A DNA stretch of 64,000 bases, from assembly GCA_013348845.1 (NCBI GenBank), contig CP054675.1, positions 620,001 to 684,000 of the forward strand, written 5' to 3'. Positions 12,549 through 19,229 of this stretch are shown in pieces. How positions within the stretch are numbered: position 1 is the stretch's first letter; each line of letters starts with the position of its first letter. Origin of the DNA: Candidatus Tepidiaquacella proteinivora (lineage in GTDB: Bacteria > Bacteroidota > Ignavibacteria > Tepidaquicellales > Tepidaquicellaceae). The notes under the pieces were generated by a model, which did no database searches, was not told where the DNA came from, and saw nothing but the letters and a program-made list of their open reading frames with translations. The translations under genes and the position numbers were made by a program.

Positions 12549-13841
12549 TCAGAAAATTACTCCTATTTTAGTTTTAAATTCATCTAAAGAAGTATTTGCA
12601 ATTGACGCAGCTTTTTCCATAGAAAATATTCCTGTAGCTACCGAATAATTAAGCAATCTATCAAATCTGAAAGGATACTCTTTAGCAATATTATCAGCAG
12701 GTTCATTCAATTGCCAGGTTTTTTCTAAAACCAATTCGCGAAAAGAACGATATCTTCTTTCTGTAATAAGGTTAATGTCAAGAGCATATTTCATAAAATC
12801 TATAATAGAAATACCATATCTCATTTTTATTTCATTGAGTTCACCAACTGCAATTTTTCTACCAACCGGAATCAGATAATCCTTTAAAACCTTCTTTGGA
12901 AGTAAAAAAGAAATTGCAAATTTATCTAAATTTACTTCATTAATTTCCTGATTATTAAATCCAACCAATATAAATGCCAACTCTTTTGCAGCATTGAATC
13001 TTACTTTTTCAGCGGAAAGTCTGCTATTAACCACAATAAAAGGATATCCTTTATATCTACCTGAAATGCTGTTAAAATCAAAAGGTAATTCTAAAGAGAA
13101 AACCTTAATCCCTTTTTCTTCAAGTAAACCTAATAAATTATAAATAGGTTCATATCCAAGTTTCCAAAGCTTCCTTAATATTTCTGATGCATAAACAGGA
13201 TTAAATTTTAATTCATTATATAAATCAAGCATAAGATACTGCCAATTAAATTTTAATTCACGATTTAACAGATTTTCTAAATAGATATAATTTTGCATCT
13301 TTTCCGATATAATAAGTTCAATTGCTAATAATTGCTTATGATTTAGATTAGTTTCATTTCTTAATACTATATCCTTTTTTGCTTCTTTAAATGATTTTTT
13401 AAACCATTTTTTTCTTTTTTCCAGAGAAGAATAAAAATGTAAATTTTTATTAGATATTTCTTCACTTTCTTTAATATCTTCACTATTGTCAAAACTTATG
13501 CAGTAGCGAGCATTACTTTTTAATTCGGAAAGGTGTATAATTGGTCGGCATGCATTAACTAATACTTCTTTTTCAATGGAATCATCCAGACTATCATGTG
13601 TATAAGCAGAACCTGGTTCAAATGGAGTCATTTTAATATCAATAACCTGCATGATTTTTTTTAATACTTCTTCAGAAGGTCTCATAATTCCCTTTTCATA
13701 TTTTGCAATCGCCTGCCTGCTGACTATATAATCAATCATTTTTGAAAGGTCGGCAAGACTCAATCCTGCTTTTATACGTGCTGCTCTTAACATTTCAGGA
13801 AATTTAGGATCTGAAATAATATTTTTAATATTAGATTCCAT
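12549..13841 (-). CDS. XRE-family regulator fused to a degenerate ImmA/IrrE-like domain
   Basis: Of 430 residues, about 16-70 form an XRE helix-turn-helix (ARIKAGLSLADLSK...SRQAIAKYEKG). A long spacer follows, then a region at about 230-330 aligning with ImmA/IrrE metallopeptidases (LGLLEEKGIKVF, FIVVNSRLS, then RFNAAKELAFILVGF and DKFAISFLLP). The zinc motif HExxH is replaced by K286-E287-L-A-F290, and the third ligand also looks lost, so proteolysis is unlikely. In mobile elements ImmA-type proteases cleave the phage or ICE repressor; here both modules are on one chain, with the protease part perhaps kept only as a sensor or dimerisation domain. It is divergent from the capsid cassette, with an inverted-repeat operator at its 5' end. 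Confidence 0.8.
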   Translation of the reverse strand: MESNIKNIISDPKFPEMLRAARIKAGLSLADLSKMIDYIVSRQAIAKYEKGIMRPSEEVLKKIMQVIDIKMTPFEPGSAYTHDSLDDSIEKEVLVNACRPIIHLSELKSNARYCISFDNSEDIKESEEISNKNLHFYSSLEKRKKWFKKSFKEAKKDIVLRNETNLNHKQLLAIELIISEKMQNYIYLENLLNRELKFNWQYLMLDLYNELKFNPVYASEILRKLWKLGYEPIYNLLGLLEEKGIKVFSLELPFDFNSISGRYKGYPFIVVNSRLSAEKVRFNAAKELAFILVGFNNQEINEVNLDKFAISFLLPKKVLKDYLIPVGRKIAVGELNEIKMRYGISIIDFMKYALDINLITERRYRSFRELVLEKTWQLNEPADNIAKEYPFRFDRLLNYSVATGIFSMEKAASIANTSLDEFKTKIGVIF

Positions 13842-13900: not shown

Positions 13901-14065
13901 ATAAAAAAATATTTTAAATATAAAAATATCTGGTATAATTTTATGTATTATCAATGATTTATTTTAGAAATAATTTTTAATTAATCAAAATTTCATATTC
14001 AAATTATTGAAGATTGCAATATATTGATTTTTAATAAAATAACAGACATTGAAAAATCATTATAT

Positions 14066-14096
14066 TTGACATTCCTTAACAATAACCATAATTTTG
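14066..14096 (+). promoter_or_regulatory. predicted promoter of the capsid cassette
   Basis: TTGACA at 14066-14071 is followed after 17 bases by TAATTTTG at 14089-14096. This fits the Bacteroidota-type -7 box TAnnTTTG with a TTG-type -33 box. It lies 34 bases before the portal start codon. The prediction is by eye only. Confidence 0.5.
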
Positions 14097-14129: not shown

Positions 14130-15272
14130 ATGGGAAAATTAAAACAATATCTGAATAAAATAAAAAACCGATACAGAAGCATAGGGATAAACTCAATCAT
14201 AAAATCATATAAGCCTTCCTTCGGAAGTATTAATTTCCCATTTATAAATTCAGAAGGATTTAGCGCTTACAAAAGTTTTGCTTATGCCTGTATCAATGCA
14301 AGAGCGGAAAATATTTGCAAAGCGAAATTCTATTTATATGAAGATATACCCGGCAGACATGATAAGGAAATATTAAAACATCCATTTCTTGACTTAATAA
14401 ATAAACCTAATATAAGAAATCAAACATTCAGGGAATTAATATATAGAATAGCAGTAAGTCTTGATTTATACGGCAATTCATATCTCTTTATACAAAGAGG
14501 AGAAGATAAAAAGCCAAAAGGATTATATTTTTTACCCACAAAAAATGTGAGAATAAAATTAAATAGTAATATGACAGAAATTGATGGTTATATATATAAC
14601 GCAAGTGGCAAAGAGATTAATTATTCAAAAGATGATATAATACATTTTTTAATACCAGACCCTGAGAATAATTTTACCGGTAAAGCAACAATAGAGGGAT
14701 TTAATCTGACACTGGAAATAGATTATCTGCAGAATTTATATCAAAGGAATTTTTATCGCAATGATGCATCACCGGGAATGATAATAGAAGTAGAAAGAGA
14801 AATGATGGAAGCTGAGTTCGAGAGGTTTAAAGAAAAATTCAGAGCATTATATGAAGGAGCGGGAAATACAGGCAGAACCTTGTTTTTAGATAGTGGCGCA
14901 AAAGCAAAACCATTTCAGGCACATCCAAAAGATGTAGAGATATTAAATGCGAGAGTGTGGATAAGAGATGAGATAATGTCTATATTCCGCGTTCCAAAGA
15001 TAATTCTTGGAGTAACTACAGATGTAAATCGTGCTAATGCAATCCAACAATTAAGAACATTTAATGATAATGTTATCCGACCATTTGCCAAATTAACAAT
15101 AGAAAGTAAAATCAATATATTTTTAAAAGAAAATTATCCGGATGAAAATTTAAAACTTATAATGGAATATGATTTTGAAAATGACAGAGAGTTACAATTA
15201 AAAGCATACGAATTATATATGAAATACGGAATTGCAACAATAGAAGAATTAAGGGAGATGGAAGGACTTTAA
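14130..15272 (+). CDS. HK97-family phage portal protein
   Basis: The 380 residues match the HK97 portal fold: AYACINARAENICKAKFYLYE near the N-terminus, LYGNSYLFIQRGE, the YFLPTKNVRIK wing region, an FYRNDASPGMII segment, and RVPKIILGVTTDVNRAN before the C-terminal helices. The portal forms the dodecameric DNA gate of the capsid. The length is near the usual 380-420, with no frameshift. It is the first gene of a rightward cassette and has no Shine-Dalgarno site. The usual upstream neighbour, terminase large subunit, is absent; the regulator gene lies there instead. Confidence 0.93.
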   Translation: MGKLKQYLNKIKNRYRSIGINSIIKSYKPSFGSINFPFINSEGFSAYKSFAYACINARAENICKAKFYLYEDIPGRHDKEILKHPFLDLINKPNIRNQTFRELIYRIAVSLDLYGNSYLFIQRGEDKKPKGLYFLPTKNVRIKLNSNMTEIDGYIYNASGKEINYSKDDIIHFLIPDPENNFTGKATIEGFNLTLEIDYLQNLYQRNFYRNDASPGMIIEVEREMMEAEFERFKEKFRALYEGAGNTGRTLFLDSGAKAKPFQAHPKDVEILNARVWIRDEIMSIFRVPKIILGVTTDVNRANAIQQLRTFNDNVIRPFAKLTIESKINIFLKENYPDENLKLIMEYDFENDRELQLKAYELYMKYGIATIEELREMEGL

Positions 15273-15305
15273 AAAAACTTCAATAATAATAAAAAAATAA
15301 TAATT

Positions 15306-16949
15306 ATGTTCACAAAAGAATGTCAGGAAAATATTTACAGAAAAGAATTTAATGATGAAGAAAGGACAATAGTCCATTACATAACAACAAAATCAGTAGA
15401 TAGATTTATGGATATAGTATATCCGGAAGGAATGGATGACACTGATTACCGAAAAAATCCCATAGTATTATTTGCGCATGATTCGAGAAAATTAACAATT
15501 GGTAAAAATATATGGCTAAAAAGGGATTCAAAAGGGATTTTAGCAAAGACGCAATTCGCAGACACGGAATTAGGGAGGGAATTATACAGGTTAAACCGGG
15601 ATGGTTATTTAAATGCATGGAGTATAGGATTTACAATACCTGAAGGAGGCTCAGAAATTATTGATGGGATAAATCATATAAAGAAATGGATTTTACTTGA
15701 ATATTCTAATGTGCCAATACCAGCAAATCCAGAATGTTTGAATCTGATTTTAAAGGAATTTCAATTACAAAACTTAAAAAAAGAAATAAAAACAAAGGAG
15801 GAAAAAATGGATGAGAAAAAGACAACTGAAGAATCTGGTATGAATGGTTCGATAAGTGATTTAGTTGGAATTATGAAAAGAGAGACGAAATCAGTATTAA
15901 AGGAATTCTTCAGTGAAAAAAATGGTAGTACTTCTCTACCGCCAGAAAATCTTCCAAATACAGCGAATAAAAATTCAGATTCTGATAAAGAATACAGGGA
16001 TTTTATTCGCTCAATCGTTTACAGAAATAACTCAATTATGCCGGAGAAATTCAAGAATTTTTTATCTGAAGGTTCTGGTACAGCAGGAGGATATACAGTG
16101 CCACCGGAATATTATGAAAGAATAATGTCTAAATTATGGGATTCAAGTGTTATAAGGAAAAACGCAACTTTAATAAGCACTGAGAGGAAAGATTTATTAA
16201 TACCGAAGCTCAGTACATTACCGGCATTTTCTTTTGTAAATGAAGGTTCAAAGAAAAGTGTCTCAAATCCAAGTTTTGAACAAATTCAAATGAGCAGACA
16301 TGATGGTGGTTTTATAATTTTAATGTCGAAACAATTAATAGAGGATTCAAAATACGATTTACAGGGTTTTGTAACAGATATGGCAACCAGAGTCATAAGT
16401 AATGCAATAGATTTAGCAGGCTTTAAAGGTATAAGTCCAATAAAAGGGATACTTGATACTTCCGTAAGTACAACTGATGTATTAATCGGTGGTTCCCCCG
16501 ATGAGATAACATACGATAAACTAATAGAAATGATATCAGCAGTGCCAAGTGAAACACTACCTAATTGCAAATGGTATATGCATCGTTCAATGTGGGCACA
16601 AATAAAAAAACTTAAATATTCAGAAAATGGTGAGTATGTTATAACTCCGGATGAGAAAAAATCATTAACACTTGAAGGATTTCCGGTGGTATTAAGTGAT
16701 TATATTTATAGTATATATGAAGGTTCGCCGGGATATCGTTATATTGTATTCGGTGATTTAAGTTATATGTTATTAATGATGAGAGACTCAATAACTTTAA
16801 ATGTATCAGATGCAGCAAGTGTAGAAGTGGGGGGTTCACAAATCAATTTATGGCAACAAGGACTCGTTGGATTAAACTTCGGGATTGCATTTGATATTGG
16901 TTATAGTTATCCGGAAGTAATTGCAACGGGTAGAACCGGTGGGGCATAA
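15306..16949 (+). CDS. HK97-type prohead protease fused to major capsid protein
   Basis: One frame of 547 residues carries two phage functions. Residues 1-155 are an HK97/U35-type protease with catalytic His58 (VLFAHDS) and Ser106 (NAWSIGF). A charged linker follows (about 156-250), then an HK97-fold major capsid protein from about residue 255 (GTAGGYTVPPEYYERIMSKL, LLIPKLSTLPAFSFVNEGS, DLAGFKGISPIKGIL, and a C-terminal GLNFGIAFDIGYSYPEVI). Protease-capsid fusions are known in some phages. An AAAGGAGG site at 15795-15802 stands 4 bases before an internal in-frame ATG (15807), which would also make the capsid part alone. Confidence 0.92.
   Translation: MFTKECQENIYRKEFNDEERTIVHYITTKSVDRFMDIVYPEGMDDTDYRKNPIVLFAHDSRKLTIGKNIWLKRDSKGILAKTQFADTELGRELYRLNRDGYLNAWSIGFTIPEGGSEIIDGINHIKKWILLEYSNVPIPANPECLNLILKEFQLQNLKKEIKTKEEKMDEKKTTEESGMNGSISDLVGIMKRETKSVLKEFFSEKNGSTSLPPENLPNTANKNSDSDKEYRDFIRSIVYRNNSIMPEKFKNFLSEGSGTAGGYTVPPEYYERIMSKLWDSSVIRKNATLISTERKDLLIPKLSTLPAFSFVNEGSKKSVSNPSFEQIQMSRHDGGFIILMSKQLIEDSKYDLQGFVTDMATRVISNAIDLAGFKGISPIKGILDTSVSTTDVLIGGSPDEITYDKLIEMISAVPSETLPNCKWYMHRSMWAQIKKLKYSENGEYVITPDEKKSLTLEGFPVVLSDYIYSIYEGSPGYRYIVFGDLSYMLLMMRDSITLNVSDAASVEVGGSQINLWQQGLVGLNFGIAFDIGYSYPEVIATGRTGGA
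15795..15809 (+). promoter_or_regulatory. internal ribosome-binding site and start codon for separate capsid protein
   Basis: AAAGGAGG at 15795-15802 precedes ATG at 15807-15809, in the same frame as the protease-capsid gene (Met168). It would yield a 380-residue capsid precursor beginning MDEKKTTEESG with a delta-like N-terminal domain. The full-length ORF itself has no comparable site. Confidence 0.6.
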
Positions 16950-16972
16950 AAATAAAAGAAAGGAGGTTTATT

Positions 16973-17137
16973 ATGTTTACTTCACCAAAAACAACAATAT
17001 GGGGTATTTGTATAGCGATAGGAACAGCGCTTGTGAATATAAATTCTTCAGGGGATTTAGGATGGTTACATTGGTTGGGACAGATTTTAATTGCAGTAGG
17101 TTCTCTAATGCTTGGTATATCAGCAAAGGATACATAA
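16973..17137 (+). CDS. 54-residue membrane protein, holin candidate
   Basis: This short gene starts at an ATG preceded by AAAGGAGG (16959-16966) and ends at TAA 17135-17137. The product begins MFTSPKTTIWGICIAIGTAL and has two hydrophobic stretches (about residues 8-22 and 33-49) around a GDLGWLHW turn. Size, hairpin topology and position in a phage cassette that also carries an amidase fit a holin or a small phage membrane protein. There is no family match by eye, so the holin role is inference. It overlaps a longer frame at 16921-17196 that has no start site or protein-like composition. Confidence 0.65.
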   Translation: MFTSPKTTIWGICIAIGTALVNINSSGDLGWLHWLGQILIAVGSLMLGISAKDT

Positions 17138-17148
17138 AAAAACTTTTA

Positions 17149-17245
17149 GCCCGATGGAAGCATATCTTAAAGAACCCAAAAAAGACACACCATTAATAGC
17201 CGCAAATGATACCACCTGTATATCCGTTTATATCTTCCATCGGGC
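17149..17245 (+). other. long-loop inverted repeat with T tract, possible terminator
   Basis: GCCCGATGGAAGCATAT (17149-17165) pairs with ATATCTTCCATCGGGC (17230-17245), 16 of 17 bases allowing one bulge. The loop is about 64 bases and ATTTTT follows. It sits right after the 54-residue gene inside the capsid cassette. It could attenuate transcription, or be the ends of a small structured RNA; the loop holds nothing I recognise. Confidence 0.5.
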
Positions 17246-17274
17246 ATTTTTAAAAAAATTAAAATATTTTAAAA

Positions 17275-17487
17275 ATGATAAAGAAATATAAAATAAAATG
17301 TAATCTCTTCTGGAATCAGCGAAACTATTATGAAGATGATGAACTGGAAATTGAAGATTCGATAGCAAAAAAATATCCACATTTTTTTGAAGAAATAAAT
17401 AAAAAAGTTGATTCTAATAATAAAGATATCAAACCAGAAGGAAACTCAGATAAATTTAAAAAAAAGAAAAAAGCAATTAGAAAATGA
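17275..17487 (+). CDS. small phage-cassette protein, unknown
   Basis: A 70-residue protein: a basic N-terminus (KKYKIKCNLFWNQ), an acidic middle (YYEDDELEIEDSIAKKYP) and a Lys-rich tail. Small proteins of this build, with a short beta-type start and an acidic segment ending near FFEEI, are frequent between capsid and connector genes of phages, where their role is unknown. It overlaps the next gene by 4 bases (ATGA), so translation is probably coupled. The position and coupling support it as a gene. Confidence 0.65.
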   Translation: MIKKYKIKCNLFWNQRNYYEDDELEIEDSIAKKYPHFFEEINKKVDSNNKDIKPEGNSDKFKKKKKAIRK

Positions 17488-18107
17488 TAGAGCTACAGGA
17501 ATTAAAAGAATATTTAAACATATCTGATACGATACACGATCCATTTTTAATGAAATGTATAGAGTTTACTACACAGAAAATGATGGCTTATTGCAGAAGG
17601 GATTTAGTATATGGCGTAAAGTATGATGTAATCAGTGGTAATAATCAAGATATAATAAATTTAAAGGTTTATCCCGTAGATAAAGTAATATATATACATT
17701 ATCGTGATGAATGGACAATGCCACCGGGAGGAGGGCATAATCAATTTAATAAGGATTTATTTAACAATAAACCTGTAGAAGATAACATATATCTCGATGA
17801 AAATACGGGCAGAGTAGTTCTTTTGAAAGGATATACTTTACCGATAGGGACATCAAATGTTGAAATAAAATATTTAGCAGGTTATTCAGTCAATTCTCCA
17901 AATCCCGTATGTGAAACACCATTGGATTTAAAAAGTGTATGCCTGATGTCAGCAACAGAATTTTTTCTAAAAAGTTTTAAAGGAGATGGTAGAATAGGGT
18001 TAAGAGAAAAGACCGAAGGTATAACAGGTTTAAGAAATAATGAATGGATATATAAAGAAGAAGACTATTCAGTAATATTAAACCGATATAAGGAGATAAG
18101 AATATGA
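17484..18107 (+). CDS. phage gp6-like head-tail connector protein
   Basis: The 207 residues begin MIELQELKEYLNISDTIHDP, then FLMKCIEFTTQKMMAYCRRDL, the helical start typical of gp6-type DNA-packaging/head-tail connector proteins. Next are VYPVDKVIYIHYRDEW and VEIKYLAGYS and a C-terminal helix with FFLKSFKGDGRIG. Such proteins form the ring below the portal. The length is close to the family norm. It overlaps the genes on both sides by 4 bases, so the run 17275-18658 is tightly coupled. Confidence 0.85.
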   Translation: MIELQELKEYLNISDTIHDPFLMKCIEFTTQKMMAYCRRDLVYGVKYDVISGNNQDIINLKVYPVDKVIYIHYRDEWTMPPGGGHNQFNKDLFNNKPVEDNIYLDENTGRVVLLKGYTLPIGTSNVEIKYLAGYSVNSPNPVCETPLDLKSVCLMSATEFFLKSFKGDGRIGLREKTEGITGLRNNEWIYKEEDYSVILNRYKEIRI

Positions 18108-18658
18108 AAAAAATAAAAATAAACAAAGATTTTCTTTTTGATGGAGAAAGAGGTTTTGAATTTATCAATAAAAAATATAATTCTGATAATTATTTAAGAG
18201 ATATTAACTTAATAAGGGAATTAATAATTCACTGTTCTGCAACAGATAGTATAAGTTTCGAAAATCCGATTAATTTAATAAAATATGACATAAACTCAAA
18301 TCATATTTCAAGGAAAGGATGCCCTTTTGCCACATATCATTTTTATATAAATAAAGCAGGAGAAATATTTCAATTGATAGGAATAAATTACTATACATGG
18401 CATTGCAAAGGTCATAATCAATATTCACTGGCAATATGCATAAATCATTCCGGGAAATATAACAATGTCACACCTCAACAATATAAATCATTAATTGATA
18501 CAATAATATATGTATTTTCTATTTTAAATTGGGAAACAGATAAAGAAACTTTAGAAAGCAAATTACATTTTCATCGCGAATTTGCTAATAAATTATGTCC
18601 GGGTAAAATTGATAAAGAATTATTAATTAAGGAGATTTTAAACTATGAAAAAAAGTGA
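18104..18658 (+). CDS. N-acetylmuramoyl-L-alanine amidase (endolysin)
   Basis: This 184-residue protein has an Amidase_2/PGRP-type domain from about residue 38. Zinc ligands fit His in LIIHCSAT, His in LHFHREF and Cys in KLCPGK; YHFYINKAGEIFQL and YTWHCKGHN are family hallmarks. The enzyme cuts between muramic acid and L-alanine in peptidoglycan. There is no signal peptide, so release would need a holin, and the 54-residue membrane protein upstream could supply one. It overlaps the connector by 4 bases and the following membrane protein by 14 bases. Confidence 0.92.
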   Translation: MKKIKINKDFLFDGERGFEFINKKYNSDNYLRDINLIRELIIHCSATDSISFENPINLIKYDINSNHISRKGCPFATYHFYINKAGEIFQLIGINYYTWHCKGHNQYSLAICINHSGKYNNVTPQQYKSLIDTIIYVFSILNWETDKETLESKLHFHREFANKLCPGKIDKELLIKEILNYEKK

Positions 18659-19229
18659 ATATTTAATTTCTTTCATTATAATAACTGGTATCATTTTTTT
18701 ATTTTATATACTAATGAAAAGTAGATATAATTATAATCAAATAACAGATAGAGACACAATATATTTAAATAAAATCATCAGTGATACTGTAATTAATTGG
18801 AAAGAAAAAATCCTATATAAACAAGTGAAACCAAAAAGTATAAAGGTAATAAAGTCAGATACCATAGAAACTCCAAAGGAAGTAATTATAAGCGCAGAAA
18901 ATATAGATAATAAATTAAAAGTTATTTCATTAAATCTAAAAGATAGTATTTTTAAAGAGTATGATTTACCGGAAATAAATAAAGATTTCAAAATTAAAAA
19001 TACAACAAATGGTTTAATATTTGAGACAAAAAAATTTCAATATAGTGGAATTAATATCTTTACAGGTTTTGAGTATAATTTTAGCAATAATAATGAGAAG
19101 GTTAATTATATTTTTGGAATAGAATCAGGAATAAAAATAATGGATAATTATGAGCTTTCTTTTGCAGTCCAATACAGAAAAGGGGTTAATGATTATTCTG
19201 GTACAATAAAATTTAAATACAAATTATAA
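18645..19229 (+). CDS. membrane-anchored protein of the phage cassette
   Basis: Of 194 residues, one N-terminal membrane segment (about 6-24) is followed by a polar stalk with repeated beta/coil motifs (RDTIYLNK, SDTVINWKEK, KSDTIETPKEV). The C-terminus (GINIFTGFEYNF, FGIESGIKI, GTIKFKYKL) has the alternating pattern of outer-membrane or beta-hairpin strands. Similar single-pass proteins often stand beside the amidase in Bacteroidota phages and may help disrupt the envelope, but I do not recognise a family. It overlaps the amidase by 14 bases and is the last gene of the cassette. Confidence 0.7.
   Translation: MKKSEYLISFIIITGIIFLFYILMKSRYNYNQITDRDTIYLNKIISDTVINWKEKILYKQVKPKSIKVIKSDTIETPKEVIISAENIDNKLKVISLNLKDSIFKEYDLPEINKDFKIKNTTNGLIFETKKFQYSGINIFTGFEYNFSNNNEKVNYIFGIESGIKIMDNYELSFAVQYRKGVNDYSGTIKFKYKL

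Follow-up and report, generated by a model that had tools for sequence, protein, structure and literature searches.

A probable, conserved nested capsid start within a protease-capsid fusion gene of a head island, possibly part of a dispersed GTA-like element

The gene at 15306..16949 on the plus strand of the window (the whole 64-kb stretch of DNA that was analysed) is, judging from its sequence, a phage-derived gene that joins an S78 protease to an HK97-type capsid protein in one chain of 547 aa, and a conserved nested start for the capsid part is well supported by the comparison of related loci. The prohead protease domain (Pfam Peptidase_S78, E 1.2e-13) covers residues 28–145 (15387..15740, +) and contains H58 and S106, which are invariant across the five fused rows of alignment A2 and which we take to be the catalytic residues. 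The capsid domain (Pfam Phage_capsid, E 1.3e-40) covers residues 261–503 (16086..16814, +). From M168, the in-frame ATG at 15807, runs a nested ORF of 380 aa (15807..16949, +) for a putative free capsid precursor, the first ~89 aa of which (15807..16073, +) are scaffold-like (delta-domain-like), with a boundary inferred from position. An AlphaFold model of the fusion (mean pLDDT 69.3) places M168 next to a low-confidence inter-domain linker (residues 164–215, pLDDT below 50), and its best PDB match was the GTA capsid 6tb9 (E 8.5e-12). A single-assembly artefact as the source of the fusion was ruled out by the recovery of six distinct fused genes in separate records.

The preliminary description had placed a strong ribosome-binding site 4 bases before ATG 15807, between the protease and capsid parts of an ORF whose own start has none. 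The site proved to be a Shine-Dalgarno (SD) sequence, AAAGGAGG, at 15794..15801 (+) with a duplex energy of −11.8 kcal/mol; it is indeed flanked by the two Pfam domains, and the duplex at the ORF start (15306) scored +2.0 kcal/mol, that is, no SD. Only the spacing was corrected, to 5 bases (AAAAA). Energies were computed against an assumed 16S tail, CCUCCUUU, the genome's own anti-SD not having been seen: a search of this genome with Rfam RF00177 gave no 16S match (the control was positive in only 9 of 14 genomes), and a 16S-end pattern matched 6 of the 29 family genomes, not including this one, with CCTCC intact in every match. The 60 nt around the internal start have an MFE of 0.0, and equally open RNA was found at 0.26% of internal ATGs. 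In a sample made up of the window and 20 further 20-kb segments of its chromosome (464 kb in all, out of 2.40 Mb), only 2 of 1548 in-frame internal ATGs, the M168 site included, reached −11.8 or stronger, and 3 of 293 ORF starts reached −11. The plus strand of the window carries five copies of AAAGGAGG, two of them within the gene cluster of the fusion. When the gene was recoded synonymously with the amino acids fixed, 1.7% of draws matched the strength of its SD (p 0.017). The corresponding values for the other fused genes taken singly were 0.039 (L061), 0.084 (G205) and 0.29–0.45 (the three genomes of genus g7, whose internal sites are weak one by one, at −5.9). No promoter-like TAnnTTTG was found near the internal start; the only matches between 13900 and 17000 are at 14061 and 14089, and a Bacteroidota-type promoter-like site lies before the portal gene (14066..14096, +). 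An internal promoter replacing the internal start was rejected on the ground that the motif is absent from there to 17000.

Relatives of the protein were found in 12 of 29 family genomes and, in a class-wide sample of 391 genomes, in 37, the named records among them being Ignavibacteria or Bacteroidetes assemblies. The protease and capsid are fused in this genome, in G213, G181 and G147 (all g7), in G205, and also in L061, which comes from an IMG/VR record, and are encoded by separate genes in, for example, G159, G220, G197 (two copies), G185 and G193. In alignments, M168 falls where the free-standing capsid gene of split relatives starts. All 13 loci that were scored, 6 of them fused and 7 split, have an SD of −5.5 or stronger before the capsid start, versus 4 of 32 other head-gene starts (portal 0/8, protease 3/13, connector 1/11), a contrast whose Fisher value of 3.3e-8 is too good because the rows are related and represent about eight lineages. 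The table of 13 loci omits the distant split loci L014, L015 and L063, of which L015 has a capsid-start SD of −7.4 and the other two have none; L016 and L047 were unscored, and the ORF-start energy of L007 was excluded as a contig-edge artefact. All six distinct fused genes of the Ignavibacteria type retain the internal SD, in codons that vary by fused lineage (AAG GAG G, GAA AGG A or AAG GAG A). The peptide and reading frame across it differ between these lineages as well, a pattern that favours selection at the RNA level. The three g7 genomes share 7 of the 8 informative codons at the internal start, compared with identity in 33.3% of 429 columns, and only 0.7% of windows are as codon-conserved. 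The SD of the present gene is also stronger than the capsid-start SDs of the split relatives. In this family, then, an in-frame start with an initiation signal is conserved at the domain boundary while nearby codons vary, the pattern that the preliminary description had proposed to look for, and its suggestion of a nested capsid start is supported by the capsid-start SDs, the position of M168 and the codon conservation in g7. The nearest relative, G005 of the same genus, has an SD of −11.9 at its ORF start, and its contig breaks off at the junction. This weighs against the nested start, as do the weak single sites of g7 and the SD-less L014 and L063. The last 100 bases of that contig (L012) hold a small out-of-frame ORF with AAGGAGG-ATG, the TGA of which overlaps an in-frame ATG.

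What was read from the sequence is the site, its rarity and its conservation; we infer the two chains, their ratio and their co-assembly. We consider it likely that two start sites on one mRNA yield a fused minor chain and a free capsid precursor. One head-island mRNA would carry the fused gene with both sites; initiation at 15306 would give the 547-aa protease-capsid chain, and initiation at 15807 through its own SD would give the 380-aa precursor with the scaffold-like N-terminus. The shell would be made in bulk from the free chain, and the fused chain, built in as a minor subunit, would bring along the protease that trims it from inside the prohead. The internal start would be the retained start of a formerly separate capsid gene. 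If true, this arrangement would be a compact way of fixing the protease:capsid ratio and of loading the protease as a fused minor subunit.

The history of the fusion is compatible with such retention. Two changes are required to explain the fused state on the tree of capsids; a single change is found in 0% of bootstraps, although the well supported branches alone force only one. Fusion probably arose at least twice, and the simplest history is repeated fusion with the capsid's own start surviving; the internal start is retained in at least three lineages. Alternatively, the SD and ATG could be an inactive relic of the separate capsid gene, with the protease cutting the fused chain as the sole source of capsid. 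The split relatives do have the same start, and the fused chain could be processed, given that in HK97 the N-terminus of the capsid protein is removed by an S78 protease. We nonetheless regard an inactive relic as unlikely: the codons at the start are conserved in g7, though two thirds of the codons for unchanged residues differ there, the start has been kept across the lineages just mentioned, and the SD exceeds those of the split relatives in strength. One protease per capsid subunit would also be unusual.

The two-start reading depends in addition on how SDs are read in this lineage. Approximately 90% of ORF starts in the sample from this genome lack an SD stronger than −6, so the SD-less fusion start is ordinary here. 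According to PMC9976891, Bacteroidia ribosomes hide the anti-SD and largely ignore SDs, which weighs against the two-start reading; in Flavobacterium, ribosomes lacking bS21 read strong ones, and −13 kcal/mol is named as the threshold for rpsU. PMC9723584 describes phage bS21 genes as neighbours of head genes. SDs of −8 or stronger were found at 21 of 293 real starts versus 13 of 1548 internal ATGs. This enrichment suggests that SDs matter in the lineage, and strong ones are probably read at some genes, though most starts have none. A candidate rpsU start scored −5.3, its position being uncertain. Because SD-less starts are ordinary and Bacteroidia hide the anti-SD, the contrast between the two starts is no proof of the low-protease, high-capsid ratio that the preliminary description had proposed. 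The SD may be real and yet act as an inter-domain ribosome pause, or serve only those ribosomes whose anti-SD is exposed (bS21-poor ones), making free capsid conditional. The SD-poor genome, the Flavobacterium result and the placement of phage bS21 genes beside head genes (PMC9976891, PMC9723584) fit this possibility. A pause site, however, needs no ATG at the exact former start, and the rpsU threshold lies beyond the −11.8 of the internal site, in energies that were computed differently (PMC9976891). We judge a pausing or conditional role to be about as improbable as an inactive relic. The gene cluster also offers a natural test of whether SDs are read in an SD-poor lineage on the Bacteroidota side, because the capsid SD is present throughout the close relatives that were scored and the neighbouring genes are mostly without one.

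A second set of fused genes came from 48 IMG/VR loci related to L142 (L206–L244 and others, several on contigs of 15–19 kb); L142 has integrase, portal, tail assembly protein and neck protein genes among its neighbours. Fusion was found in 22 of the 48, and in 18 of these 22 the linker holds a start codon whose duplex scores −4.9 or stronger. Together with six others they make up 24 kept genes. The rank test gave Fisher values of 5e-6 for the 18 kept of 22 and 2e-9 for all 24 kept of 29, both inflated by relatedness. The linker contains a start codon in 24 of 24, which is often expected by chance with GTG and TTG allowed, and it falls outside the top 10% of same-size windows in half of them. 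Local GC is below that of the gene in all 18 kept members of the second set. The two sets have in common a protease-capsid fusion with a linker start, whereas the second differs in its higher GC, weaker sites and lack of a codon-conservation excess (4/7 identical codons, with 57% of windows as good, and 2/7). The tendency of the second set, more weakly, to the same layout is suggestive of convergence and is not proof of it. In L241 and L249 the protease match lies inside long ORFs (601 and 613 aa), possibly portal-protease fusions.

It is a tentative idea, and one that may well fail, that protease-capsid fusions repeatedly keep a free-capsid start such that one gene sets the protease dose, with the capsid, in this SD-poor bacterium, the sole head gene regularly given an SD and its output tracking anti-SD exposure, in a dispersed GTA-like element. 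The absence of a synonymous-constraint excess in the second set counts against a general rule of this kind. Chance, with AAGGAG arising unaided from the Lys/Glu-rich linker because the genome is rich in A, was already disfavoured and is very improbable for the internal site, since the K/E-rich linker, the single-gene recoding values (0.017–0.45) and the half of the 24 kept genes outside the top 10% are set against an SD at 13 of 13 capsid starts versus 4 of 32 others, a rank of 2 in 1548 and the match of M168 to the split capsid start.

Nested protease and structural products are already known. In lambda C/Nu3 and Mu I/Z, one gene makes a protease-containing long product and, from a nested in-frame start, a shorter structural product. 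The likeness to lambda that had been drawn for this gene holds for the nested start and the protease-containing long product and fails for the short one, which is a scaffold in lambda and Mu and here would be the major capsid precursor with a scaffold-like N-terminus. The herpesvirus UL26/UL26.5 pair likewise joins a maturation protease to an assembly protein and has a shorter 3' co-terminal product; that product comes from a nested transcript, whereas no promoter-like site lies near the internal start described here. HK97 gp4 (protease) and gp5 (capsid) share their families and the portal-protease-capsid order with the window but are separate genes, unlike the present gene and its five other distinct fused relatives. 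Searches of an open-access library turned up no protease-capsid fusion with a nested start; what would set the present case apart is that its nested product is the major capsid protein.

The portal gene of the head island (14130..15272, +) has no SD; a regulator of the HTH + IrrE/M78 type (12549..13841, −) is divergent from the island. A TAATTTTGTATGG-type promoter-like site before the portal start is kept in L004–L006, L012 and L013. Directly after the capsid lies an ORF for a 54-aa membrane-type protein (16973..17137, +), whose SD (AAAGGAGG at 16959, −11.4) is among the strongest in the window. It is followed by a gp6-like head-tail connector (17484..18107, +), an N-acetylmuramoyl-L-alanine amidase of the endolysin type (18104..18658, +) and a small protein with an N-terminal hydrophobic segment (18645..19229, +) that has no family match and is possibly spanin/Rz-like. 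No terminase or tail gene was recognised beside 14130–19229, where the neighbours, judged by eye, are host-type. A complete or recent prophage was not seen: by eye, no terminase, tail or integrase genes accompany the head genes, and the TerL that was found lies ~540 kb away in a two-gene TerS-TerL island flanked by host genes. This two-gene terminase arrangement also occurs in G147 and G159, and separate head and TerS-TerL islands were seen in three genomes (window 14130–19229; L122 12927–14517; L124 4217–5827; L125 8644–10264). TerL was matched at E 2.5e-43 or better in 12 of 12 family genomes with a capsid relative, and tape measure PF10145 had no match in this genome. Taken together, the head and terminase genes may be a domesticated GTA-like set that is dispersed over the chromosome. 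In one IMG/VR record (L255 and L061), proteins that look Mu-like by eye share a contig with a head island of the window type.
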